DNA from: Sphingopyxis sp.
GTDB taxonomy: Bacteria; Pseudomonadota; Alphaproteobacteria; Sphingomonadales; Sphingomonadaceae
NCBI GenBank assembly: GCA_015657575.1
Contig: JACDQN010000502.1
Coordinates: forward strand, 1 to 32,590
Reading direction: 5' to 3'
Length of the DNA: 32,590 nucleotides
The first letter of the stretch is position 1, and each line of letters begins with the position of its first letter. The position numbers and the translations under genes were made by a program. The notes under the pieces were generated by a model that ran no database searches, had not been told where the DNA came from, and worked only from the letters and a program-made list of their open reading frames with translations. Below are positions 4,409 through 31,935 of the stretch, one piece after another.

Positions 4409-5335
4409 TCAGGTATTGACGGTCATGAAGCGGTCGTTGAGCGCCTTTTCATAATAGAAAATCGCCTTGCCCGCCTGTTCGACGCCCCACGACCGGCGAG
4501 GATTATCGGGGTAATAATCATAACCGCCGGCAAAGGTCTCGTTCCGATTTCCCGAAGGGTCGAAGAAATATATGGTCTGACCACGCGTGATACCGTGGCG
4601 CGTCGGGCCGATATCGAGTGAGATATCATAGCGACTGATGATATCGGCAGCATTTCCGACGTCGTTCCAGGATTCCAGGCGGAACGATGTATGGTGGATT
4701 TTCGCATCCTCGGGGCCTGCAAGGAACGCGATATCGTGAGCCTTATTGCTACAGCTCAGGAAGATGCCGAGCCGAGTGCCGCTCGCTTCGTCGACGAGTT
4801 CCTCGGTAACGGAAAAATCGAGCGCTTCGACGAAGATTCGCGCCGATCCCGCGACATCGATGCCGTTGAGCGCCGAGTGATCATATCGCATAGCGCGCAT
4901 GCCGCGCGGCTCACTGTGCCAGACGTCCGGGTTCTTTGTGGGAGGACCGTCTGCCGATAATTCCATGTCGGCGTAAAGGTCGAAGATATGCCCGGTAGGA
5001 ACCGCGAAGCGCAGCTTGCGTCCGACGCCCTCTTCCTCGCCCGCGGTGATCCATTCGACGTCGACGCCGGTGGCTTGCAAACGGTCTGCGAATATTTCGA
5101 GGTCGCTGTCGCGGCAAACCTTGAAGCCGATCCGATCAAGACCGGGCATATCCGCCTCGCGCAGGATGACGCTGTGTCGATCGAATTCGTCGAACCCGCG
5201 GAAAAATGCCCGGTCACCCGAACGACCGACGAGTTCCAGCCCGATCCGGTCGCGATAATGGGGGATGGCCTCCTCGAGATCGAGGACGCGCATCTGGACA
5301 AAGCCTGGTCGCATCACGCCTGTAATTGCCATCAC
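4409..5335 (-). CDS. dmpB: catechol 2,3-dioxygenase (type I extradiol, XylE/DmpB-like)
   Basis: 308 aa; ligand motifs MRYDHSAL (H), KIHHTSFRLE (H), ITRGQTIYFFDPSGNRNETFAGGY (E). Confidence 0.93.
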   Translation of the reverse strand: MMAITGVMRPGFVQMRVLDLEEAIPHYRDRIGLELVGRSGDRAFFRGFDEFDRHSVILREADMPGLDRIGFKVCRDSDLEIFADRLQATGVDVEWITAGEEEGVGRKLRFAVPTGHIFDLYADMELSADGPPTKNPDVWHSEPRGMRAMRYDHSALNGIDVAGSARIFVEALDFSVTEELVDEASGTRLGIFLSCSNKAHDIAFLAGPEDAKIHHTSFRLESWNDVGNAADIISRYDISLDIGPTRHGITRGQTIYFFDPSGNRNETFAGGYDYYPDNPRRSWGVEQAGKAIFYYEKALNDRFMTVNT

Positions 5336-5351: not shown

Positions 5352-6200
5352 TTAAAATTTTAGGCCGTGACTGAAAAATTCGATCACGGCGCGATTGAAA
5401 CTGGCCATCCGCTCGATCTGTACCCAATGGCCACACTCTCCAAAGAAGCGGACGTCTGAGTGTGTGATCAGGTTTCCGAGGCGCAGCGACACCTCTTGCG
5501 GAATGACTTGGTCGGCCTTGCCGTGCAGGACGAGCACTTCATGGGGAAGCGCGGCGATATCTTCCTCGCGGCTCGACAGCATAGCAATATTGGCCTGCCG
5601 GTCGGAACCGCCGAACGTCGCATGATAGGGCTCATGCGCTCCTGGGCGGATGCTCGCGTGATAACGGGAGTCGATCAGATCGTCGGTCAGCCGGCTCTGG
5701 TCCCATGCGAGCATCTTCAGCGACTCATGCATCATTTCGCGGGATGGCTCATAACCCCAGACGAAATCGAGCGCCGGCGTGAGCGGGAATTCAAGTCCAG
5801 CCGCTCCCATCAAAACGGCACGATCGACCCTGTCGGGATGGGCGATCATGAAGGCGAGCGTCACGCCGCCGCCGAAGGAATTTCCGACCATCGAGACCTG
5901 GTCGATTTCCAGGTCGTCGAGAAGACGGACCAGTTGATTGGTCCAGATGGCCTTGTCGGTGATCCGACCCACCGAGTCGCTGTAGCCGAAGCCAATCATG
6001 TCGGGAGCAATGACCCGGAATTCCTTAGCAATCTCGGGCATATTAAGCCGCCAGTTCGCCCATGCCGTGACCCCGGGGCCCGAACCGTGGACGAGGAGGA
6101 CCGGCCTGCCCTCGCCGGTGTCATGATAGTTGGTTTTGATCCCGTCAGCGACGAATGTCTTGCCGATTTCGGGCCGGACCATGTCGGGCGCCGAACTCAT
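5352..6200 (-). CDS. dmpD: alpha/beta hydrolase, 2-hydroxymuconate semialdehyde hydrolase-like
   Basis: 282 aa; VLLVHGSGPGVTAWANWR, MVGNSFGGGVTLAF nucleophile elbow, VLHGKADQVIPQEVSLRL, ECGHWVQIER. Confidence 0.9.
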   Translation of the reverse strand: MSSAPDMVRPEIGKTFVADGIKTNYHDTGEGRPVLLVHGSGPGVTAWANWRLNMPEIAKEFRVIAPDMIGFGYSDSVGRITDKAIWTNQLVRLLDDLEIDQVSMVGNSFGGGVTLAFMIAHPDRVDRAVLMGAAGLEFPLTPALDFVWGYEPSREMMHESLKMLAWDQSRLTDDLIDSRYHASIRPGAHEPYHATFGGSDRQANIAMLSSREEDIAALPHEVLVLHGKADQVIPQEVSLRLGNLITHSDVRFFGECGHWVQIERMASFNRAVIEFFSHGLKF

Positions 6201-7047: not shown

Positions 7048-8070
7048 TCAGCGATCCACCTCGGAAAAGCCCTTTCCGGCGGTCAGCACCCCACAAGTCC
7101 GCATGGCACTCAGCATCATCGATGGATCGGCTTTGCCCGTTCCCACAATGTCATATGCCGTGCCGTGTGCGACCGACATATGGAGATAGGGTGGCCCCAT
7201 CATGATCACGCAGTTTCCCGAGAATCCCCATGTCTTGACGGCTATGTGGCCTTGGTCGTGAAACATCGCTAGCACGAGATCGTATCGGCCTTCGATACAT
7301 TGGCGAAAGACGGTATCGGGCGCGGATGGTCCATCGACATTGATGCCGCGCGCGCGCGCGCGCGCGACTCCAGGACCGATGGCACGATCTTCCTCATCGC
7401 CGATGGCATGAGGATTGAGACCCGCGACCACGATCCTGGGGTTGGCGACGCCCCAGCTTCGAAGCGCCGCGTCGATTTGCTGTAGGGCGGTATCGATCAA
7501 CTCGGGCGTGATGAGGTCGCAGACCGCCCGAATCGACATATGATCGGTGAGGTGGGCGACACGGAGCGGTCCGGTGAGGAGGAGCAGATAACTCTCGCCC
7601 GGCGTCGGGCTGATCACCATATCCAGCTTTCCCGCCAGTTTAAGCGATCCGGTGCTGATCGGACCCATCACTGTGCCGGCGAAGACCCCGTCGCGCGCGA
7701 GCGCATCGAGTTCGGCTAGCCACTTGGCGGTCGCAATGCCCGATTCGAGCGTATCTTTCGCGAAGGGGAGCGCGCGGTCGTCCAGCGCACCTGTATCCAG
7801 GATATCGATGACTGCCGGGTCGTCGCTGAGCGGCTCGAGCGAACGCATGACACGCAGGCGGGCCGACACTTTAGTCAGGTCAAGCGCTCGTTCGACCGAG
7901 GCCGCCGACCCCACTAATAGGGGAACCGACACCTCATGCACGCGGCCTGACGCCCAGGCGCGAACGGTAACCTCGGGTCCGATGCCTGCCGGCTCGCCGA
8001 CCATGGTACCGATGCAGGGCCGGAATCCGGCCTGCTGCGACGCTACGCCGACCTCAAATGCTGTAGACAT
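7048..8070 (-). CDS. PdxA-family NAD-dependent dehydrogenase (copy 1; candidate dihydrodiol-carboxylate dehydrogenase)
   Basis: 340 aa; GTMVGEPAGIGPEVTVRAW, LTDHMSIR, VAGLNPHAIGDEE, LVLAMFHDQGHIAVKTW, VAHGTAYDIVGTGKAD. Overlaps the 3' end of the oxygenase beta gene. Confidence 0.9.
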   Translation of the reverse strand: MSTAFEVGVASQQAGFRPCIGTMVGEPAGIGPEVTVRAWASGRVHEVSVPLLVGSAASVERALDLTKVSARLRVMRSLEPLSDDPAVIDILDTGALDDRALPFAKDTLESGIATAKWLAELDALARDGVFAGTVMGPISTGSLKLAGKLDMVISPTPGESYLLLLTGPLRVAHLTDHMSIRAVCDLITPELIDTALQQIDAALRSWGVANPRIVVAGLNPHAIGDEEDRAIGPGVARARARGINVDGPSAPDTVFRQCIEGRYDLVLAMFHDQGHIAVKTWGFSGNCVIMMGPPYLHMSVAHGTAYDIVGTGKADPSMMLSAMRTCGVLTAGKGFSEVDR

Positions 8071-8548
8071 CGAGCATCGTCTGCGCGAGGTCGTTGATGA
8101 CGACGGTATATTTGCGTTTTATCACAAAGGCGTCGCCCATCGGTTCGAGATCGTAAATGGCCGACCCACTGTAGACCGTCGGCCGATCCTCCAAGACCGA
8201 GGTCACCGACCAATTCGTCCGCGCCCGAATGACGTCGTCCTCATGGTCGACCGCGAGCAGGCAAAAGATATGGGAAGTGCGCGGGGCCGGCGAACTGGCC
8301 GACGACCGGCCCGTCCGAATGCGATAGACGCGGTCCTCGAGCCCTGCCCGGGTCGGATAATAGATCAGCGAAATCTCGCGCCTTGGGTCCTCGGTCAATC
8401 GGCCGCTGTCATCCCACGCGGGGACCCAATATTCGGCATCGGGATGATATAGATCGATCCAGCTATCCCAATCCTTGGCATCGAGAGCGGCCGCTTCGCG
8501 CCCGAGAAATCGCTGGATCGCGGTCCATTGCGCAACTTCGCTGCTCAT
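8054..8548 (-). CDS. aromatic-ring-hydroxylating dioxygenase beta (small) subunit, set A
   Basis: MSSEVAQWTAIQRFLGREAAALDAKDWDSWIDLYHPDAEYWVPAW...; SnoaL/NTF2-like small subunit. ATGA overlap with alpha gene at 8545-8548. Confidence 0.9.
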   Translation of the reverse strand: MSSEVAQWTAIQRFLGREAAALDAKDWDSWIDLYHPDAEYWVPAWDDSGRLTEDPRREISLIYYPTRAGLEDRVYRIRTGRSSASSPAPRTSHIFCLLAVDHEDDVIRARTNWSVTSVLEDRPTVYSGSAIYDLEPMGDAFVIKRKYTVVINDLAQTMLDVYSI

Positions 8549-9955
8549 TTCGCCATCTCCGGCTTCGGGGGTAACGCGCGCTCGGCCTCTTCGCTCGCAA
8601 TGGCTCCGCGCATGCGCAATATCCATTCGTCGTGGATCGCGACGTAAAGCCCCTCGTCGGCCACCGCCGTGCCGCTAAGGATGGCGTCGACGCCCAGGGC
8701 TTCGCCGTGGCTGCTGACGCCTTGCACCCACCGTGTCGATCCCCGCGACATGTCGTTCATCCGGCCAGCCCCGCCACCGAAACCGACCTGGCAATTGTTG
8801 AACTCGGTCAGGTCGTCCGGCGTAGCCATGCCGCTTGCATTGAAGAAATCTTCATACTGGCGGATGCGCAAGGCGCGGGCGTCGTCACTCTCACCCACCG
8901 GAGCTATGCAGTAGGTTGTCACCTCGGTCTCATCCACCGAGATGGGCCGGATGATACGGATCTGGGTGCTCGTCTGGTCCATGAGGAAGACGTTAGGGAA
9001 CAGCTCCAGATTGCGTATCCGGCCGTTCATCCAGGTAGCGCGCTCTTCGCCGCGCTCGCGCTTCAACCAGTCCAGGATTTCGTAATTCGGCCGGTCCTGA
9101 TAGTTTGCATAGTCATTCCAGAGCACGCAATGGCCGTTGTCGAAGGAGAAAGAGCCGCCCTCGAGCTGAGCCCAGCGACCGAAATCGAACGCCCTGGTAT
9201 CGTTCTTCGATGTCCCGTCGACCCGGCGTGCGACCGTCATGAAGTAATTCGCGTGCACCGTGCCGATATGATAGCCGTCGAGGCCATTTTCGACCTGCAG
9301 CTTCCAGTTCCCTCGATAGCGGTAGCGCGTAGCGCCTGGAAGAACTTCGAGCTTCTCTTCGACCGACTGATCAACCATGAGATCGATGAATGTCTTCGCG
9401 CCCGCGAGATAGTCCTCAAGAGGAACGACCTCGGGGTTGAGACTGGCGAAAATGAAGCCCCGGTAAATCTCGATGCGCGCAACATGTTCTAGACCATAGT
9501 CTTCCCGCTTGAAGCCCGGCGCGTAGCCACCCCCAGCCTCATCTGTCACGTCGAGGAGTTGGCCCGCGGGATTATAGGTCCAACCGTGGAAGGGGCAGGT
9601 GAAGTTGCGGCGGTTTCCGCTCTTCTCGCGGCAAACGCGCGCGCGCGGTGCGCGCAGCATTGATCAGACAATGCAATTCCCCGGCCCGGTCGCGGGTCAG
9701 GATGACGGGCTGGCGGCCGATAAAAGTCGTGAGAAAGTCGTTCGGCTTTGCGACCTGGCTCTCGTGCGCAATGAAGACCCAGTTGCGCTCGAAGATATAT
9801 TTCAGCTCGAGAGCGAACACGTCCGCGTCGGTAAAGGCCTCCCGGTCGATCTGAAAGCGGCCGCTTCCCTCGTCTTTTACGAGCCATGCATCGATACGCG
9901 AACGCAGTGATTCAAGCTCTGCCACGGCTGCGCCGTTTCCGTCAGGTTGCAACAT
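8545..9955 (-). CDS. Rieske aromatic-ring-hydroxylating dioxygenase alpha subunit, set A (BenA/TphA2-like); frameshifted in the Rieske motif as presented
   Basis: N-terminal ORF (to 9994, TTG) with likely start MLQPDGNGAAV at 9955 after GGAGGAGA; C-terminal ORF 8545..9660 with RRNFTCPFHGWTYNPAGQLLDV, NWKLQVENGLDGYHIGTVHANYF. Frames break at about 9637-9659, within the first CxH half of the Rieske site. Confidence 0.9.
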
Positions 9956-10070
9956 CCTCTCCTCCATTTCCGGCCACCGAGATTCGTAGGTCAACTATTT
10001 GGATCAACGATTCTCGGCTCAACTCTTTGGACTCTTCCGATCCCGAATGACCCAACATAGCATGCGTGGC

Positions 10071-10096: not shown

Positions 10097-10202
10097 TCTA
10101 AATTGCCCTATTCGAATCGCGTTGCATCATGTGCGACACGTCAACCAGGCTGGTTCAGGCGTATAAAAGCCAAAAATGGCTTGAGATTTGGGAGTGCGAA
10201 AT

Positions 10203-11102
10203 ATGGTGGGCGTGACCGAGCTGGGTTATCTAGGCTTGTCGGTATCTGATCTGGATGCATGGAAGAGCTTCGCGTGCGGCGTCGGCGGCATGGAATATGT
10301 CGATGAAGGCGAAGGCGACCGCGCGTATCTGCGAATGGACAAATGGCATCACCGCATCACGCTGCATGCTGATGGCGGTGACGATCTTGCCTATCTTGGC
10401 TGGCGCGTTGCGGGTCCGGTAGAGTTCGACGAAATTGTCGAGAAGCTGACAGTCCAGAATATCGAAGTCGAAATAGCGAGCGACGAAGCGGCGCGCGAGC
10501 GCCGGGTCCTCGGCTTGGCCAAGCTCAAGGATCCGGGCGGTAATCCCACCGAAATCTTCTTCGGCCCCCAGGTCGACAATTACCGCCCTTTTCATCCCGG
10601 CCGCCCGATGTTCGGTCGTTTTGTTACCGGCGCCGAAGGGATCGGCCATTGCATCCTGCGTCAAGATGATGTGGCCGCAGCGGTTCGCTTTTATCAGCTG
10701 CTCGGGCTGCGGGGCTCGGTCGAGTACCACCTCGCTTTGCCGAACGGTGAGGTCGCTGCCCCCTATTTCATGCATTGCAACGACCGGCAACATTCCGTGG
10801 CTTTCGGCCTCGGTCCGATGGACAAGCGGATCAACCATTTGATGCTCGAGTACAGCGAGCTCGACGATCTTGGCCTTGCCCACGACTCGGTGCGCGAACG
10901 AAAGATCGATGTCGCACTCCAGCTCGGAAAGCACGCGAACGACGAAGCGCTGACATTCTACTGCGCAAATCCGTCAGGGTGGCTGTGGGAATTTGGCTGG
11001 GGAGCGAAAAAGGCGGGCCCGCAGCAGGAACATTATCTGCGCGACCTCTTCGGCCATGGAAATGAAGCCGAGGGCTACGGAATGGACATCCCCCTCGGCT
11101 GA
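10203..11102 (+). CDS. type I extradiol dioxygenase (BphC/NahC-like)
   Basis: MVGVTELGYLGLSVSDLDAWKSFACGVGG...; ligand motifs EGIGHCILRQD (H), RINHLMLEYSELDDLG (H), WLWEFGWG (E). Track start 10188 is TTG; ATG at 10203 preferred. Confidence 0.92.
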   Translation: MVGVTELGYLGLSVSDLDAWKSFACGVGGMEYVDEGEGDRAYLRMDKWHHRITLHADGGDDLAYLGWRVAGPVEFDEIVEKLTVQNIEVEIASDEAARERRVLGLAKLKDPGGNPTEIFFGPQVDNYRPFHPGRPMFGRFVTGAEGIGHCILRQDDVAAAVRFYQLLGLRGSVEYHLALPNGEVAAPYFMHCNDRQHSVAFGLGPMDKRINHLMLEYSELDDLGLAHDSVRERKIDVALQLGKHANDEALTFYCANPSGWLWEFGWGAKKAGPQQEHYLRDLFGHGNEAEGYGMDIPLG

Positions 11103-11978: not shown

Positions 11979-13250
11979 ATGCTCAATGTTCAAGATACGG
12001 CCGTAGGTAAAGTGTCGACCGACACCGAGGAGCCCATTGGCTGCCGGATACCATATTCCGTGTTCACGGATGATGCCTTTTACAAGGCCGAACAGGAGCA
12101 TCTCTTCCGCGGCCCCACCTGGAACTTCGTTGCGCTCGAGGCCGAAGTCCCGAACCCCGGTGATTTCAAATCGACCTTCATCGGCGACACGCCGGTCGTT
12201 GTGACGCGGGACAAGGACCAGAGCCTCCATGTCGTTGTGAACCGCTGCGCGCATCGCGGCGCGACGGTATGCCGCGCACGCCAAGGCAATGTGCCGCATC
12301 TCGAATGCGTTTATCATCAATGGGCTTATGAATTGAACGGAGACCTCATGGGCGTCCCGTTCCGCCGCGGGATCAAGGGCAAGGGGGGGATGCCGGCGGA
12401 TTTCGATCTCAAGCAACATGGCTTGGTCAAGCTGCGCGTCGAAGCGTTGAATGGGCTGGTTTTCGCGACATTCTCGCAAGAAGTGGAGCCGCTGACGGAC
12501 TATCTCGGTCCGCTCATCACCAAGCATGTCGAGCGGATCATGTGCCGCCCGATCAAGATATTGGGCAATCAACGCCAGTTCATCCACGGCAACTGGAAGC
12601 TATACGCCGAAAATACGCGCGACCCCTATCACGCAAGCCTCCTCCATCTGTTTCACAATACTTTCGGCCTCTATCGTTCGACGCAAACCGGCGAATGCCT
12701 GATGGACGAGAGCAAGCGGCATTCGTTCCTTTATTCGAAGGCGGGCAGCAACGACGCGGCGCGCGACAGCGAAGTCTATCAGGACTCGCGCAGCTTCGAC
12801 ACGAGCTTCTCGCTCCAGGATCCGTCGCTGCTCGCGGGCCGGAGCGAGTTTCCGGACGGCATCACCCTCGTCATCCTGGCCCTTTATCCCAACCTGATTT
12901 TGCAGCAGATCTCGAACACGCTCGCGGTTCGCCAGATCGTCACCCACGGACCGGATTCGTTCGAGCTCGTGTGGACCCAATTTGGCTATGCGGACGATGA
13001 TGCGGAGATGGACGCGATCCGCCTCAAGCAATCGAACCTCATCGGACCGGCGGGCATGATCTCGATGGAGGATGGCGAGGCGGTCGAGATCGTGCAGCAG
13101 GCGGTCAGCTCGGACAGAAAGGCAAGATCCTATATCGCGATGGGCGGCGGCGGCGCCGATGATGCGGATCATCTTGTCACGGAAGGGGCCATCATCGGCT
13201 TCTGGCAAAATTACCGCGAGATGGTGGGAATCGAAGAGAGGGTCTCATGA
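11979..13250 (+). CDS. Rieske oxygenase alpha subunit, set B (salicylate-hydroxylase/anthranilate-dioxygenase-like)
   Basis: 423 aa; VVNRCAHRGATVCRARQGNVPHLECVYHQWAY Rieske site; HGNWKLYAENTRDPYHASLLHLFHNTFGLYRSTQ mononuclear Fe site. Confidence 0.92.
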   Translation: MLNVQDTAVGKVSTDTEEPIGCRIPYSVFTDDAFYKAEQEHLFRGPTWNFVALEAEVPNPGDFKSTFIGDTPVVVTRDKDQSLHVVVNRCAHRGATVCRARQGNVPHLECVYHQWAYELNGDLMGVPFRRGIKGKGGMPADFDLKQHGLVKLRVEALNGLVFATFSQEVEPLTDYLGPLITKHVERIMCRPIKILGNQRQFIHGNWKLYAENTRDPYHASLLHLFHNTFGLYRSTQTGECLMDESKRHSFLYSKAGSNDAARDSEVYQDSRSFDTSFSLQDPSLLAGRSEFPDGITLVILALYPNLILQQISNTLAVRQIVTHGPDSFELVWTQFGYADDDAEMDAIRLKQSNLIGPAGMISMEDGEAVEIVQQAVSSDRKARSYIAMGGGGADDADHLVTEGAIIGFWQNYREMVGIEERVS

Positions 13251-13837
13251 CCGCCACCATTGATTTCTACTTCGATTTCATCAGCCCGTTCAGCTATCTC
13301 GCACAGTTGCGTCTGCCGGAGATTGCGCGTCGGCACGGCCGGGCGCTCGCCTATCATCCCATCGACATCCCCGAAGCAAAGATTGCGGCGGGCAATTACG
13401 GCCCGTCCAACCGCGAGGTGCCGGCGAAGATAAAGGTTCTGACCGCGGATCTGCAGCGTTGGGCTCGGCGGTACGACGTGCCGCTTACCTTTCCATCGAG
13501 CTTCGAGTGCGGAGGCTGGAACACAGCCGCAATCTTCGCGGCCCGTCACGGTGCCGCCGAAGGCTTCGTGCGGGATGCCTATCGGCGCATCTGGGGCCTC
13601 GGAATCGATCCGCGAGACCGGGACGAATTGCGCGCCTCGGCGGCAACGGCGGGTCTCGAAGCCGATGCCGTCATGGCCTTCGTGGATTCGAAAGAGGGCA
13701 AGCGCGCCTATCGCGAAGCGCGGTCGAAAGCTTACGCCCGCGGCGTATTCGGCGCGCCGCTTATGTTTGTCGACGACCAGATATTCTGGGGAAACGACCG
13801 GCTGGATTTTCTTGAAGAGCATGTGCGGACGAATTGA
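13247..13837 (+). CDS. nahD: 2-hydroxychromene-2-carboxylate isomerase (DsbA-like fold)
   Basis: 196 aa; IDFYFDFISPFSYLAQLRLPEIARRHGRALAYHPID...GVFGAPLMFVDDQIFWGNDRLDFLEEHV; ATGA overlap with the alpha gene. Confidence 0.9.
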   Translation: MTATIDFYFDFISPFSYLAQLRLPEIARRHGRALAYHPIDIPEAKIAAGNYGPSNREVPAKIKVLTADLQRWARRYDVPLTFPSSFECGGWNTAAIFAARHGAAEGFVRDAYRRIWGLGIDPRDRDELRASAATAGLEADAVMAFVDSKEGKRAYREARSKAYARGVFGAPLMFVDDQIFWGNDRLDFLEEHVRTN

Positions 13838-13861: not shown

Positions 13862-16049
13862 ATGGACATGAGGACCAACAGTTATAATAGCGGGCGCGCC
13901 CTCGCGAGCGGCATCGCACTTTTCGCACTGGCCTGGAGCGCGGCCGGCCAAGCCCAGGATACGGCCCCGGCTGCCGAACCCGAGCCCGAGGCGCAGTCGA
14001 GTTCGGGTATCTCCGACATCATCGTGACGGCCACGCGCCGCGAGGAGCGTCTGCAGGACGTTGCTGTCGCCGTGACCGCGATCACCGGCGATTCGCTCTC
14101 GGCGGCAGATGTTTCGACGGTGCGCTCGTTGACCCAGGTGGTTCCCGGATTCATCGGGAGCCGCAACATGGGTGTCTTCCAGCCCGTCATTCGCGGCGTC
14201 GGGTCGACCGGCATCTCGATCGGCGACGAGCCAAACATCGCCACCTATGTCGATGGTGTCTACCAGCCAGAGTCGGCCGCCAACTGGATCGATCTCGTCG
14301 AAGTCGAGCGCGTGGAAGTGCTGCGCGGACCGCAAGGCACGACATTTGGCCGCAACGCCACCGGCGGCCTGATCAACGTGATTACCCCCGACCCCAGTTT
14401 TGACCTGCGCGGCAAGGCGTCGCTGCGTTACGGCCGCATGCGGAGGGACGCGGGCGATTATGATGCCCGCTTCTATATCACCGGCGGCCTTAGCGATAAA
14501 TTGGCTGCCGATTTTGCCGCCCTCTATCGCAAGAACGACGGCTATATCGACGATCTGGTGCGCGGCGGCACGCTCGGCGACCAGCAAGTGATCAACTTTC
14601 GCAGCAAGCTGCTGTGGCAGCCTTCCGACAATGCCAAGGTCATCCTGACCGGCGAATCTTCGACCAGAACAGCACGACCAATTCGCCCCAGCCGGTCAAT
14701 GGGAATACGGCCGGCCGTCGCTTCCCGGGCGTTATACTTCCGACCGACGCTTGGCAGGCGTCACTGACAGCATTCCTACGCTGGACTTACGGCGCTGGAG
14801 TGCGGCGCTGCATGTAAAACTCGAGTTCGACGGCTTCAACCTCGAGGCGACGAGCGGCTTCATGAATCTGCGCTGGTACCAGGAAACCGATTCGGACGCC
14901 TCGAACATCTTCCTCGGTAATTTCCCTGCAACATTTGCGACGGAATCGGGGAGCCAGGAAATCAAGTTCACGTCTGCCGACCCCGGCCGATTCCAGTGGC
15001 TCCTGGGCGGCTATTTCTACCAGTTCGGCGGTCATACTGAGTTGGATCTCGTCACGTCGCCGGGGCCTGGAATCCCTCCGACCACCCTCAACCTTGATCC
15101 CGCACTATCGGGTCGCTCGTTCGCGGGCTTTGCCGAAGGAACCTACGAGATCGTCGACGACCTGTTCATCACTGTCGGCGCGCGGTACACCACCGAGCGG
15201 CGGACCTTCGAACAGGTCGTTAATGGAAATCTGGTCGTTCCGAAGACCGCCAAGTCGTTCAACAAGTTCAACTATCGCGGCGCAGTCCGGTACCAGTTCG
15301 CACCCGACGGAAGCATTTATGCAAGCTATGGCACCGCATTCAAAAGCGGCGTCTACAATATGGCGGGCACATCGCCGAATCCGGTCAATCCCGAGAACAT
15401 CAAGGCATGGGAGGCCGGCATCAAGGTCGACCCCTTCAATTGGCTCCGCACGAACCTCGCCGTTTATCACTATACGTACGACGATCTGCAAGTTCAGGCC
15501 AAAGACGCGTCGGGTCCGAGCTACGTCCTGCAGAACGCAGCGAGCGCCAAAATCTATGGCGGCGAGTTCGAGGCGATTATCCAACCGATTGACGATCTCA
15601 ACATCCGCGGCTCGGCGGCCTACAGCCACGCGCGCTATCGTGATTTTCCGCTCGCGCAGAGCTTTTTCCCGCGCCCCGACGGAGGCAACACTGTTGCCCC
15701 GGCGGACGCGTCGGGTAACGTGATGACCCGCGCCCCGAAGTGGACGTTCAACCTGGGGGTCGATTGGGGCCATGAGTTCGATGCAGGGCGCCTTGGGGTC
15801 TCGGTCAACACCTTCTACTCGACCCGGCTCTATTATGACTTCCAGAATATTTTCTCCCAGCCGAGCTATACCCTTACCAATGCGTCGATATCCTTTGCCC
15901 CAACCGGTGATCGCTGGAAATTCAGCCTCTGGGCGACCAACCTCACCAACGAAAAGGTCTTCCAGACCATTCGTGTCGGGGCGCAGGCAACTGACGGCTT
16001 TTACGAACAGCCAAGAAAAGTGGGCGTCAGCGCCGAACTCCGGTTCTGA
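13862..16049 (+). CDS. TonB-dependent outer membrane receptor (copy 1), two frameshifts as presented
   Basis: ORF 13862..14767 (DIIVTATRREERLQDVAVAVTAITGDSL...RNATGGLINVITPDPSFD), bridge in ORF 14614..14817 (FDQNSTTNSPQPVNGNTAGRRFPGVILPTDAWQASLTAF), ORF 14751..16049 (DSIPTLDLRRWSAALHVKLEFDGF...FYEQPRKVGVSAELRF). Colinear with the intact copy at 26170..28374. Confidence 0.92.
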
Positions 16050-19570: not shown

Positions 19571-20271
19571 TCATCCGCCGCTTGCTCCTCGACCTTCGGT
19601 CACGTCCATCGCCGTCAGCCAACTCCACATCCGCTCAACGACGCCGCCGGCCAGGGTCTGGCGCGCGCGTATCTCGTCTTCATCGAGAAGCCCGTGTTGA
19701 GGGCCGAACCCCATCGAGCGCACGTCGCGCTCTACCCGCGCGGCGTCTTCGAGGAAGAAGGCAAAAGTCGCAGCTTCCTTCAGATCTTGCCCGACCGTAA
19801 TCGCTCCGTTTCCTCGCATGACGATCGCACGAGCCTCGCCAAGGGCAATTGCAAGATTTCTCGCTGAAGCGTCGTCGCGCAGGAGCCTGGGATCGTCCCA
19901 AAGCGGCGGCCGGGGAGCGAAATAGGCGCCTAGGCCGTGCCGCGCCGCCGGTGTGATCCCGAGCGTCGACAACGACATGGTGGCGGCGGGCATGATGCGA
20001 CAAATGCCGCCGACATCGGACGCGCGGCATAAATCGCCTGGTGCGCGCGCACTTCGCCAAGCACTTTTTGGGGAAGGGCGCCATCGACCGAGACAATAGT
20101 ACCGGGTTCGTCCTTGATAAGCCCCATGGGCATTGCGGCACAGACAAGAAAGTGCCGCGCATCGATGCGCGCACTGCAATGGCCGAACGCGTGCACGAGC
20201 CCGGCGTGCGCCAGGCCGCGCGCCGCCATGCGCACCTGCATCTGAAGTCCGGGGTCAATCGTCGCCGGCAT
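19571..20271 (-). CDS. class II aldolase/adducin-family protein (aldolase or decarboxylase), frameshifted as presented
   Basis: ORF 19930..20271 (MAARGLAHAGLVHAFGHCSARIDARHFLVCA...VRAHQAIYAARP) continues into ORF 19571..20179 (GGICRIMPAATMSLSTLGITPAARHGLGAYF...AIVMRGNGAITVGQDLKEAATFAFFLEDAARVE) after one missing base near 20017-20020. Confidence 0.85.
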
Positions 20272-21265
20272 AAAACCCTCTCCCGAAGCAGAGTGATTCG
20301 GCCATCTTCATCGCGGAGGCCATGCTGGCGTGCTGGGCGATGCCCTGTCCCGCAATTTCCATGGCAGATCCGTGCGGTACGGTCAGATGAACATAATCGA
20401 GGCCGATATAGATGGTGCACGCGCCTTCGAAGGCAGCCGTCTTGAGCGCAATCTGGCCCTGGTCATGATACATTGAGACAACGACGTCGTATCGCCCCTC
20501 CATGGCAAGACGAAATATCGAATCGGGCGACACCGGCCCCTCGACGCGGCGCCCCGCCGCGCGCTCCCGTTCGACCGCCGGCGCGATCTCGCGCACTTCT
20601 TCAGTTCCCATCGCGTGCGGATTCAGGCCGGCGACGCCGATCCTGGGGGCATTGACGCCCCAACGCCTGAAAGTCTCGTCAACGAGACCGATCAGCGACG
20701 ACACCGCCGCGGCAGAGACAGTGCCCGGGACCTCGGCGATGCTGATATGCTCGGTGATTGGGACGATCCGCAACGAGGGGCTGACTCGCAATAGATAGGT
20801 TCCAGTCGGCTGAAGATCGTCGATCGACGATATTTCGCCAGACGCCTTGAGTGATTGCGAGTCGACCGGGGCCATGATCCAGCCATCGATCTCTCCATTG
20901 CGAGCCAATTGCTCGGCCAAGCGGATCCATTCTATCACCGCCCGGCCCGAAGCGGCGCCCGACTGTCCGATATCCCATGCCCCCCTCGCCAGCGAGCCGT
21001 GGTCGAGAACGGCGATTTCGCCAACCGCACCGGACACCTCATCCGGCGTTTCCACCTGGTAGATGGGAGGGCTAATCCCGCTCGCCGCGGCCGCGAACCG
21101 GACAGCGTCGATGCTTCCGATCAATAGGTGCCGCGCCGCGTGGTTGCCGGCGGCGAGTGCCTTGACACAGACCTCTGGACCGATACCCGCCGGATCGCCA
21201 ATGACGGTAGCGATGAGTGGCTGCTCACGGCGCGGCTTGCCCGCTCCTTCGCCTGCACCTCTCAT
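20255..21265 (-). CDS. PdxA-family NAD-dependent dehydrogenase (copy 2; candidate dihydrodiol-carboxylate dehydrogenase)
   Basis: 336 aa; ATVIGDPAGIGPEVCVKAL, ITEHISIAEV, VAGLNPHAMGTEE, VVVSMYHDQGQIALKTAAFEG, VPHGSAMEIAGQGIA. Confidence 0.9.
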   Translation of the reverse strand: MRGAGEGAGKPRREQPLIATVIGDPAGIGPEVCVKALAAGNHAARHLLIGSIDAVRFAAAASGISPPIYQVETPDEVSGAVGEIAVLDHGSLARGAWDIGQSGAASGRAVIEWIRLAEQLARNGEIDGWIMAPVDSQSLKASGEISSIDDLQPTGTYLLRVSPSLRIVPITEHISIAEVPGTVSAAAVSSLIGLVDETFRRWGVNAPRIGVAGLNPHAMGTEEVREIAPAVERERAAGRRVEGPVSPDSIFRLAMEGRYDVVVSMYHDQGQIALKTAAFEGACTIYIGLDYVHLTVPHGSAMEIAGQGIAQHASMASAMKMAESLCFGRGFYAGDD

Positions 21266-28431: not shown

Positions 28432-28926
28432 TCACAAAGGAAACACCAGATACCGCGGCACGACCGCGTTGTCGGTCACCGCGTTCCGCGACAGAAAGCG
28501 ACATTGATCGTCTTCCATTCGAATAATGTCCTCGTAGGTCCCGGCGGCCAGCTGCTGCGGCAGCCCGGTATCGTCGGGGGTAAAGATCACGGAGAAGTTC
28601 GAGACCATGTCGACGAGACCATCCGCGCGGCGGCTGGCGTGCACGCGCTGAACGAAATGCCGGGTACGATAGTCCTGGAATGTACCCGCCCATATGTCTT
28701 CGATGAAGGTGCAGCGATCGATTAACCTGTCGCGGCAGTCGTCGAGCATCATCGCCACGCGCAGGCCGCTCTCGACATCGTTGCGCGCGATGCAGATGTA
28801 ACTCGCGCTCGGATCATCTTCGAACGTGTCGAGCCACGACCGCATTTTCTTCCCGTCCAGTGCCGACATATATGCCGACTGGAGTTCATCGAGCCGCGCG
28901 AGCTCGTCGAGCGTCAAGCGCGTCAT
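28432..28926 (-). CDS. aromatic-ring-hydroxylating dioxygenase beta subunit, set D
   Basis: 164 aa; MTRLTLDELARLDELQSAYMSALDGKKMRSWLDTFEDDPSASYICIARNDVESG...; ATGA overlap with alpha. Confidence 0.88.
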   Translation of the reverse strand: MTRLTLDELARLDELQSAYMSALDGKKMRSWLDTFEDDPSASYICIARNDVESGLRVAMMLDDCRDRLIDRCTFIEDIWAGTFQDYRTRHFVQRVHASRRADGLVDMVSNFSVIFTPDDTGLPQQLAAGTYEDIIRMEDDQCRFLSRNAVTDNAVVPRYLVFPL

Positions 28927-30113
28927 GCCTCCCTCCTCCGGAAGCCCATGGCGGCGCGATAATATTCCCAGTGCGGAAGATTGCCGCTCTCGTCGTTCTG
29001 ACGGAATTCGAACCCGAGCCGGGATGGATCGGTGACGCCTTTTTGGAAGATGGCCTTGCCGGGGGTGCGATTGCCGATCTGGACCCGGTGGAAAACCGAG
29101 GCGTCTTCCATACTGATCAGGCCGGACGGGCCGATCGCGTTGGAGCTTTGCCTTATTCGGTGCAAGACCATCGCGTCATCGTCGTCCTGATGCGCGAAAT
29201 AGGCGTAGGTGACTTCCACCTCGTCGATTGCGACAGGCGTAGCGAAACGGATGCTGATGACGTTCAGGTAATTTGAGGCGACGAGCATCGGAAAGAGAGC
29301 GAGCACGCTGGCGTTTTTCGGCCGCCCCTCGTCGCGAAACTCGATGACCGAAGCATCGCGGATTACGCTCGTGGGCTGGGGAACGGTCAACTCGGTTTCG
29401 ATGCAATAATGGCCACGTCCGGTAGTCGCATACTGGCGGCCTGCGCCGCCCTGCCAGTTGAGCATCGTGAACGCCTGGTGCAGGAGCGGCGGATGATAGC
29501 CGTCGTTGTCGCTATAGGCTTTCCAGTTGGTCAGATACCGGACCCGATGATAGCCAATCAGCTTGAGGCGTCCGTCACCGGCCATGATGTCCAGCAACGA
29601 CCCTTTCGCTTCCTGCAGGAAGTCGTCGAGGCTTTCGGTGTCCGGCGACAGCGTCACGAACAGGAGGCCGCCGACCGATTCCTGCCGCGGCTGGGTCAGC
29701 GGATAGTCTTTCTTGTCGAAACCGGGGATGAATTCGCGCTGATTGGGGCAGCCGACCAACTCGCCCTCTTTGTTGAACAGCCACCGATGATAGGGGCATT
29801 CGAATTCGGCTCGATTGCCCGAAGGCTTTACCTCGATCTGGGTGCTGCGATGTGAGCAGGCGTTGAAGAATGCCCTGACCCGTCCGTCGTCGCCGCGGAT
29901 GATGAGCAGGGGGACGTCCGCAAGATTGCAGGTTTTGAAGTCCCCCGGGTGCGGCACTTCGCTTTCGTGCGCAACGGGATGCCACTCGGCTCCACGGAAA
30001 ATCCGGTCGATCTCGGCTTGGTAGAGGTCTTGCCGGACGAAAATCTCCTTGGGGATTTCGTTAAAATTTGCCGGCCAGACAATGTCTTGAAGATAAGCCT
30101 CCGGAACCGTCAT
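28923..30113 (-). CDS. Rieske oxygenase alpha subunit, set D
   Basis: 396 aa; FFNACSHRSTQIEVKPSGNRAEFECPYHRWLF; YLTNWKAYSDNDGYHPPLLHQAF. Confidence 0.92.
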   Translation of the reverse strand: MTVPEAYLQDIVWPANFNEIPKEIFVRQDLYQAEIDRIFRGAEWHPVAHESEVPHPGDFKTCNLADVPLLIIRGDDGRVRAFFNACSHRSTQIEVKPSGNRAEFECPYHRWLFNKEGELVGCPNQREFIPGFDKKDYPLTQPRQESVGGLLFVTLSPDTESLDDFLQEAKGSLLDIMAGDGRLKLIGYHRVRYLTNWKAYSDNDGYHPPLLHQAFTMLNWQGGAGRQYATTGRGHYCIETELTVPQPTSVIRDASVIEFRDEGRPKNASVLALFPMLVASNYLNVISIRFATPVAIDEVEVTYAYFAHQDDDDAMVLHRIRQSSNAIGPSGLISMEDASVFHRVQIGNRTPGKAIFQKGVTDPSRLGFEFRQNDESGNLPHWEYYRAAMGFRRREA

Positions 30114-30205: not shown

Positions 30206-31060
30206 CTATGTGGACAACTCCTTGATTTTCGGGGTTGCGCCCCACATGCAGAAGCTCTTCGGTTCAAAGCCGAACTGGCGTTCCCTGTAGGTCTCTTCGT
30301 CGACCTCGCGCACGCCGACGGAATATTCAAAGACCATCCCGTCGGGACCCTCGAAATATACGAACCGCGCGCCCGAAGTCGGATGCCGGCCGGGTCCGAA
30401 GACGATGGGAACCTTATGCTGGCTAAGCAGCGCGTAGCTGCGCTGCACATCGTCGATCGACTGAACCTGGTGGTTGATGTGCTGGATACCGCACCGGTCT
30501 GCGGGGACGAGCGCGATGCTGTGGTGAATCTGGCTCAGACGGAGCAGCGGGAGCTCGCCTACCCGGTCACTGACGCGTGCATTGCATATTTGGGTCCAGA
30601 AATGCTCATCGCGACCGGGATCCCGGCTGAACAGACCGACGTGACTGAAACCCGTAATTCCCGCGTCGCGAGACAGCTGCGCGCCATTGCCACCGATCTG
30701 CGGCGAAACCGCGAATTCGATGCGTCCCCCGCTGGGGTCACGAAAGGCTATGAATTCGGAAACGTGCCGCTGCTCGCGTTCCTCATGCGAACCGTAGCAC
30801 ACCTCATACCCTAATGCTTCGAGCGTTTTCGCCGCATTGAGGAGATCCTCCCCATTCGCCAATTCGAAGCCGACAATCGTTTCGGATGGGTCGCCGATCT
30901 CGTAGCTCATCGTGCTCATGCGACTATCGGAGCGAAACGACAGGCGATCAACCGCGCGATCGACAGGCTCCAGGCCAAGTATTCGCGTGGCGAAATCGGT
31001 ACGCGCGACATCCGGTGTCTTGAGACGAGTATAAGCGATGTCAATGATGTTGATGGTCAT
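30206..31060 (-). CDS. VOC-superfamily extradiol dioxygenase-like protein (predicted metal ligands present)
   Basis: MTINIIDIAYTRLKTPDVARTDFATRILGLEP...; GFSHVGLFSRD (H), GIQHINHQVQSIDDV (H), GPDGMVFEYSVG (E). Confidence 0.85.
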   Translation of the reverse strand: MTINIIDIAYTRLKTPDVARTDFATRILGLEPVDRAVDRLSFRSDSRMSTMSYEIGDPSETIVGFELANGEDLLNAAKTLEALGYEVCYGSHEEREQRHVSEFIAFRDPSGGRIEFAVSPQIGGNGAQLSRDAGITGFSHVGLFSRDPGRDEHFWTQICNARVSDRVGELPLLRLSQIHHSIALVPADRCGIQHINHQVQSIDDVQRSYALLSQHKVPIVFGPGRHPTSGARFVYFEGPDGMVFEYSVGVREVDEETYRERQFGFEPKSFCMWGATPKIKELST

Positions 31061-31935
31061 GGCAACGTTCCTCCCAATTCTTCGAGGTTGGAGGTCGAAC
31101 CCCAACTGCATAGCGAGGCGGGAGAATCGGCAAACTGCCGTGGCCGGCGTCCGACGGGCGACGGATCCGATCGGGTCGAATAGGTGAAATAGCTGTCGGG
31201 CGAGGGCCCGCTGAAGGTCAGAAACACTTCACCGCTCGCGGGTTCCTTGCCTGGGCCGCGGACAATGCCGACCTGCCGGTCAAGGAGAAAATATTTCGAC
31301 TGCATCACGGCGTCGATGCTCTCGACCTCAAACCCCACGACGAGGAAGCTCTCGCGCTTGCTCGGCACAATCATGATCCTGTGATGCTGATCGTCCCAGC
31401 CGAGGTAGATTGCGTCGCCCACCCGATCGGTGATCCGCGCTCCGAGGATGTCCACCCACACAGCGGCGTCAGACGCCGGGTCCCGGCTGCCGAGGATCAC
31501 GTGTGACAGGCCGACAATTCCCGCATCGCGCGATGGAAAATATCGCTCGCCGCTCTCCTCGGCCCGAACGACCAGCTCGATGAGATTGCCGCTTAGGTCG
31601 CGACAGGCGAGCCCCGCGTGATAGCGGCGGCTTCGACACAGATCGTGAGGGATCGCCTCGACATCCCAATTTCGCTCCCTGAGTTTCCCGGAGACTTCCT
31701 GCAGCTGCTCGACGGTTCTCAGCGACACCGCCACGCTGGGCCGGAGGCTGCTCCCGGAACCGTCGAACTCCAGGCAATAGGACCGAGAGTCAGAACGGAA
31801 CCGTTCGGCTTCCGGCAACCGTTCGCTGTGCTGCAGGCCGACGGTATCAACGGCGAGCCGCGTGGCTTCGCTAAGCGACTGAACCGGGATCCGTACGAAC
31901 CGTAGCTGCTCCAGCATTTGCCACCTCAAATCCAA
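31057..31935 (-). CDS. VOC-superfamily extradiol dioxygenase-like paralog lacking two predicted metal ligands
   Basis: MDLRWQMLEQLRFVRIPVQSLSEATRLAVDTVGL...; GLSHVILGSRD keeps H, but FLVVGFEVESIDAV and SGPSPDSYFTYSTR lack the second H and the E; ATGA overlap with 30206..31060. Confidence 0.82.
   Translation of the reverse strand: MDLRWQMLEQLRFVRIPVQSLSEATRLAVDTVGLQHSERLPEAERFRSDSRSYCLEFDGSGSSLRPSVAVSLRTVEQLQEVSGKLRERNWDVEAIPHDLCRSRRYHAGLACRDLSGNLIELVVRAEESGERYFPSRDAGIVGLSHVILGSRDPASDAAVWVDILGARITDRVGDAIYLGWDDQHHRIMIVPSKRESFLVVGFEVESIDAVMQSKYFLLDRQVGIVRGPGKEPASGEVFLTFSGPSPDSYFTYSTRSDPSPVGRRPRQFADSPASLCSWGSTSNLEELGGTLP

Follow-up and report, generated by a model that had tools for sequence, protein, structure and literature searches.

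Two overlapping VOC-family genes and their metal sites

The window analysed here is the 32,590-nucleotide stretch of contig JACDQN010000502.1 from Sphingopyxis sp., in which two genes on the minus strand, here called P1 and P2, encode two-domain VOC proteins. An earlier note on this DNA had described two VOC genes joined by an ATGA junction (31057-31060), and the sequence bears this out: both open reading frames (ORFs) are present, P1 upstream and P2 downstream, and the start codon of P2 overlaps the stop codon of P1 in the ATGA at 31060-31057.

31057..31917, minus strand: P1, putative ligand-less two-domain VOC (type I extradiol-like) subunit, 286 amino acids (ORF, translation, Pfam, AlphaFold, Foldseek)
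30206..31060, minus strand: P2, putative catalytic type I extradiol dioxygenase subunit, 284 amino acids (ORF, Pfam, HsaC alignment, AlphaFold, Foldseek)
31057..31060, minus strand: ATGA stop/start overlap of P1 and P2 (sequence)

The note had extended P1 to 31935. The reading frame is the same, but 31935 is a TTG, and the start is better set at the ATG at 31917 because P1 orthologs begin at the same MLEQLRF. As the note also had it, the two proteins can be aligned along their length (36% identity over 264 residues, E 7e-44); this excludes a chance alignment and, on sequence evidence, P1 and P2 are paralogs. Both match Pfam Glyoxalase (PF00903) and have the two-domain VOC fold of type I extradiol dioxygenases. 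Two tandem VOC modules are present in P1 (Pfam, AlphaFold model, Foldseek) and in P2, where they appear as beta-alpha-beta-beta-beta repeats (AlphaFold secondary structure, Foldseek). The AlphaFold models, built with small alignments, have a mean predicted local distance difference test score (pLDDT) of 74.8 for P1 and 77.7 for P2. In Foldseek comparisons both fall among BphC, HsaC, catechol 2,3-dioxygenase (C23O) and 3b59; the top matches are 3b59, HsaC and C23O for P2 and extradiol dioxygenases for P1. P2 scores far under the NCBIfam equivalog cut-offs: with 86 bits for P2 and 53 for P1 against a cut-off of 366, neither qualifies as the BphC equivalog TIGR03213, nor as any other NCBIfam equivalog. 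The C-terminal tail, which carries R260, C270 and W272 (P1 numbering; invariant in both subunits), is unstructured from residue 251 onward in both monomer models, which is what an intersubunit element would be expected to show.

Counts given here and below refer to 21 non-identical tandem pairs, that of the window and 20 further ones, from at least seven alphaproteobacterial families. The positions that matter at the metal site are as follows.

30641..30643, minus strand: P2 H140, predicted metal ligand 1 (alignment with HsaC/BphC)
30479..30481, minus strand: P2 H194, predicted metal ligand 2 (alignment with HsaC/BphC)
30326..30328, minus strand: P2 E245, predicted metal ligand 3 (alignment with HsaC/BphC)
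31501..31503, minus strand: P1 H139, first ligand position; His in this near-identical group only
31339..31341, minus strand: P1 V193, second ligand position; all catalytic partners have His
31183..31185, minus strand: P1 T245, third ligand position; all catalytic partners have Glu
31381..31386, minus strand: P1 H178-H179, HH dipeptide; invariant in 21/21 ligand-less subunits

The note had assigned an intact H/H/E set and a GRH histidine to one partner and ligand losses to the other, and both halves of that description stand. P2 has H140, H194 and E245, the HH pair at 179-180 and H226 (GRH); aligned with HsaC, its C-terminal domain holds the 2-His-1-Glu triad, as do all 21 catalytic partners. 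P1 reads H139, V193 and T245, keeps the HH pair and carries E225 where P2 has the GRH histidine, and H/H/E occurs in 0/21 ligand-less subunits. The predicted strands that carry the ligand positions are equivalent in the two folds (134-144, 192-198 and 242-248 in P1; 135-145, 191-199 and 243-247 in P2), so the loss of the metal site in P1 is not an alignment slip. A His and a Glu at the metal site of P1 were looked for and no such set was found there; the note's idea of an inactive or repurposed partner survived this test. Assembly error as the source of the loss was rejected, since independent genomes carry an identical P1. The surviving GLSH histidine is not conserved: apart from the near-identical copies, every relative has Q, S, A or G there, and the last ligand His of P1 is therefore dispensable.

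Recurrence and evolution of the pair

Searches covered genome contigs, the genus, samples of order, class and phylum, plasmids and, by directed search, the surroundings of three distant genomes. In the contig scan, the pair was found with a 100% identical P1 in Sphingopyxis italica and other Sphingopyxis, and with 83% identity in a Sphingomonadales metagenome-assembled genome; the genus search added nine further Sphingopyxis genomes with identical P1, plus relatives near 70%. The pair also lies on a conjugative plasmid of Pseudosulfitobacter pseudonitzschiae (L056, Roseobacteraceae; L numbers are our own handles) and on Tistrella mobilis pTM2 (L117).

The note had proposed a search for genomes in which both genes stay adjacent, and each of the 20 further pairs has an upstream copy without H/H/E. 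Downstream, the protein is H/H/E in 21/21 pairs, whereas the upstream triads are HVT (window), QVS, SSS, SGS, AAG, SNS, SNT, AAS, SEG, AYA, GEG, AGT, GYS and GNS. Eight of the 20 turned up only once the pattern had been set out and served as a held-out test, which all eight fit; repetition of the pattern in 20 further pairs excludes chance. Within the upstream family the ligand columns are unconstrained (variability percentiles 0.54-0.90), in contrast to the invariant HH. Gene order does not vary, the ligand-less gene always coming first, and the 4-base overlap is present in 15 of the 20 pairs checked, the genes of the others lying 10-32 bases apart. In about 1500 genomes, every ligand-less protein found had its partner, and every member found of the paired catalytic clade had a ligand-less protein next to it. 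A second type of tandem VOC pair, with H/H/E in both proteins, occurs in L086, L087 and L089 (family f109); they fall within the solo-type clade and stem from a separate duplication.

In a tree of the 21 pairs computed with the three ligand columns removed, the ligand-less upstream proteins group as a single clade (96/93) and the paired catalytic proteins as a second one (100/98.6), with the solo relatives outside both. The branching order is mirrored between the two clades; their pairwise distances correlate at 0.91 (0.88 on the first 12 pairs), a value reached in 0/5000 permutations. In an earlier tree, built on 13 pairs, the ligand-less clade was not resolved (2 changes), and a tree that held it together was not worse (approximately unbiased test, p-AU 0.57). 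With 21 pairs, the ligand-less clade is placed outside all catalytic members; this position may reflect long-branch attraction, and we claim no exact time of origin.

P1 is under purifying selection. Pairwise ratios of nonsynonymous to synonymous substitution rates (dN/dS) for the three closest pairs are 0.10-0.16 for P1, at dS 0.7-2, compared with 0.05-0.13 for P2. Evolution is faster in the P1-like proteins, with a mean identity of 0.44 compared with 0.65 for P2-like proteins, yet they are clearly constrained. The note had allowed that homologs might reveal a randomly decaying copy; instead they form a conserved, purifying, co-inherited lineage. Because the pairing is kept across many bacteria, the "dead" copy P1 is probably a working subunit and not a decaying gene.

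Genomic context

Two genes follow the pair directly on the same strand.

28923..30113, minus strand: Rieske oxygenase alpha subunit, directly downstream of the pair (Pfam PF00355/PF00848)
28432..28926, minus strand: ring-hydroxylating oxygenase beta subunit (Pfam PF00866; synteny)

The Rieske alpha gene stays beside the pair in Sphingopyxis relatives (synteny in L003, L009, L039 and L059), and the order after the pair in the window, namely Rieske alpha/beta, TonB receptor and aldehyde dehydrogenase, is the same in relatives. The window also holds a BphC-like gene (10188-11102) and a catechol 2,3-dioxygenase-like gene (4409-5335).

Elsewhere the surroundings differ. The meta-cleavage operon of L056 contains Rieske alpha/beta, a short-chain dehydrogenase/reductase (SDR), a ferredoxin, an ABC transporter and the pair, together with an amidohydrolase, a hydratase, an acetaldehyde dehydrogenase, an aldolase and a BphD/HsaD-like hydrolase; apart from the pair, no extradiol dioxygenase is annotated in the stretch read. 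This arrangement is partly common to L090, L091 and L113. In Tistrella the pair is followed by a class II aldolase-like decarboxylase, a 2-hydroxymuconic semialdehyde dehydrogenase, an FAA-family hydrolase and an HpcH/HpaI aldolase; in this meta-cleavage operon, too, the stretch read has no other annotated extradiol dioxygenase. The pair thus occurs in both hydrolase-type (L056) and dehydrogenase-type (Tistrella) pathways, and the difference between these operons indicates that it serves different pathways sharing the ring-cleavage step.

Compared with the near-identical Sphingopyxis cluster L042/L043, the window is 99.95% identical, with 3 substitutions and 14 single-base indels; differences lie at 1074, 6734, 9644, 9657, 14657, 14768, 18836, 20021, 23505, 23555, 31002-31004 and 32503. 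As indels far outnumber substitutions, several interrupted ORFs (acetaldehyde dehydrogenase, Rieske alpha 8545-9994, TonB receptor 13862-16049, SDR and major facilitator superfamily) look like assembly or sequencing errors and not pseudogenes. The P2 of the window is one residue short near position 20 relative to L042/L043. The near identity of the whole cluster in the one compared, together with the 100% identical P1 in nine other Sphingopyxis genomes, suggests that a large aromatic catabolic cluster spread horizontally very recently.

Four separate Rieske oxygenase alpha/beta sets lie within 8054-30113 of the 32 kb window, one of them adjoining a 2-hydroxychromene-2-carboxylate isomerase-like ORF (13247-13837, identified by reading its translation). 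Two PdxA-like ORFs (4-hydroxythreonine-4-phosphate dehydrogenase family by reading of the translations; 7048-8070 and 20255-21265) each share a few bases with a gene for a Rieske beta subunit and are possibly catabolic dihydrodiol dehydrogenases.

A putative heteromeric extradiol dioxygenase

BphC, HsaC and catechol 2,3-dioxygenase share fold, ligand set and HH pair with P2 and the overall fold with P1; the known members are homomultimers. We know of no type I extradiol dioxygenase with a ligand-less full-length partner. A limited search of the open-access literature found no description of a heteromeric or pseudoenzyme VOC extradiol dioxygenase, which makes the novelty provisional, and a limited PDB search found no solved hetero-complex among relatives. 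Solo P2-like dioxygenases (L040, L057, L058, L060, L063 and others) have 44-53% identity to P2 and an intact H/H/E. Genes for a semialdehyde dehydrogenase and a hydratase accompany most of them in their operons; these solo proteins have no ligand-less neighbour and fall outside the paired catalytic clade.

Closer parallels in design come from another fold. CarBaBb is LigB-type, and the LigB fold of AmnAB is unrelated to the VOC fold that both P1 and P2 have. What these systems share with the 21 pairs is the co-encoding of a catalytic and a non-catalytic subunit. AmnAB, the 2-aminophenol 1,6-dioxygenase, is a LigB-type, class III extradiol enzyme (PMC10470539, PMC3790839) made of inactive and active paralogous subunits with iron in the beta subunit only, and the Micromonospora AmnAB subunits are insoluble when expressed singly (PMC10470539). 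In the amn cluster amnB precedes amnA, whereas in the P1/P2 pairs the ligand-less gene is always first. CarBa and CarBb of 2'-aminobiphenyl-2,3-diol 1,2-dioxygenase are structural and catalytic subunits (PMC10992316); as with P1/P2, the non-catalytic gene comes first with a small overlap (5814-5821 in strain XLDN2-5) and the system is found in sphingomonads (PMC2848856, PMC10992316), but CarBa is a short subunit of 110 residues and P1 a full-length paralog of P2. On the reading preferred here, P1/P2 would be the VOC counterpart of AmnAB and CarBaBb.

We consider it probable that P1 and P2 together make up a heteromeric extradiol dioxygenase of type I (VOC fold), in which P1 is an obligate, metal-free subunit. 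Three options had been put forward in the note, namely a heteromer, a substrate-binding or regulatory subunit, and a new chemistry; the first is best supported because of reciprocal co-occurrence, mirrored trees and translational coupling, and the other two are kept as rivals. P2 would bind the active-site metal, expected to be Fe(II), through H140, H194 and E245 and open a catecholic ring supplied by a Rieske dioxygenase pathway; the operon context would fit Fe(II)-dependent meta cleavage of a catechol. P1 would be an ancient paralog that lost its metal site. The ATGA overlap would couple the amounts of the two proteins, P1 would assemble with P2, filling half of the positions in what was ancestrally a homomultimer, and it would probably stabilise P2 or shape its active site. 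Here we infer the physical complex, its stoichiometry, the need for P1 in activity, the role of the subunit, the identity of the metal and the substrate.

Several points weigh against this reading. The 21 pairs include near duplicates (e.g. L085/L097, L088/L128, L112/L133), and mirrored trees also arise by co-inheritance in an operon without contact. Solo relatives of P2, judged by gene content, manage without a partner, so the fold does not generally depend on P1. Strict HH conservation is unexplained by pure scaffolding; it suggests that the pocket of P1, or the strand bearing HH, still matters.

That conservation also speaks for P1 as a stand-alone metal-free enzyme or binding protein beside the dioxygenase, acting for example on the ring-cleavage product via HH, which we regard as unlikely. 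H178-H179 is kept while the ligand positions drift, Y246 is retained in 16/21, and the pocket-side GPG and S228 are retained; but the remaining pocket residues (the GRH His and the Y235 equivalent) vary freely, no new conserved acid/base set has appeared, and ring cleavage is the only step common to the hydrolase-type and dehydrogenase-type pathways. Marginally less likely still is a regulatory or substrate-sensing P1 that holds catechol in its dead active site and tunes P2 allosterically: fold and HH are retained while metal and GRH are lost, but type I enzymes ligate their substrate largely through the metal, which is absent here. A decaying duplicate kept by hitch-hiking in a recently spread cluster is very improbable. 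Recent spread alone could preserve the 100% identical P1 of nine other Sphingopyxis genomes, but the dN/dS of about 0.1-0.16 at dS 0.7-2 rejects this reading, as do the separate clade and the orthologs in seven or more families, which are intact and ligand-less even where identity falls to about 40%. VOC enzymes vary in their ligand sets, yet an active P1 with unusual metal coordination is the least credible option, as the clade has V, S, G, A, N, E or Y at position 2 and T, S, G or A at position 3, with no conserved metal-capable replacements.

Beyond the heteromer in the window, we find it moderately likely that the pairs represent an ancient, hitherto undescribed class of heteromeric VOC-type extradiol dioxygenases in which a metal-free HH paralog completes or gates its partner's active site or carries out a separate metal-free step. 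The homomultimer is the textbook form of type I extradiol dioxygenases, which also serve as models of how non-heme iron activates oxygen. If the heteromeric reading is true, the conserved pseudoenzyme subunit would parallel the LigB-type AmnAB and CarBaBb as a convergent design of catalytic plus dead subunits, and the "active" gene may fail when expressed alone. The paired genes, whose annotation says no more than "VOC family protein", would then encode the ring-cleavage step of whole operons.
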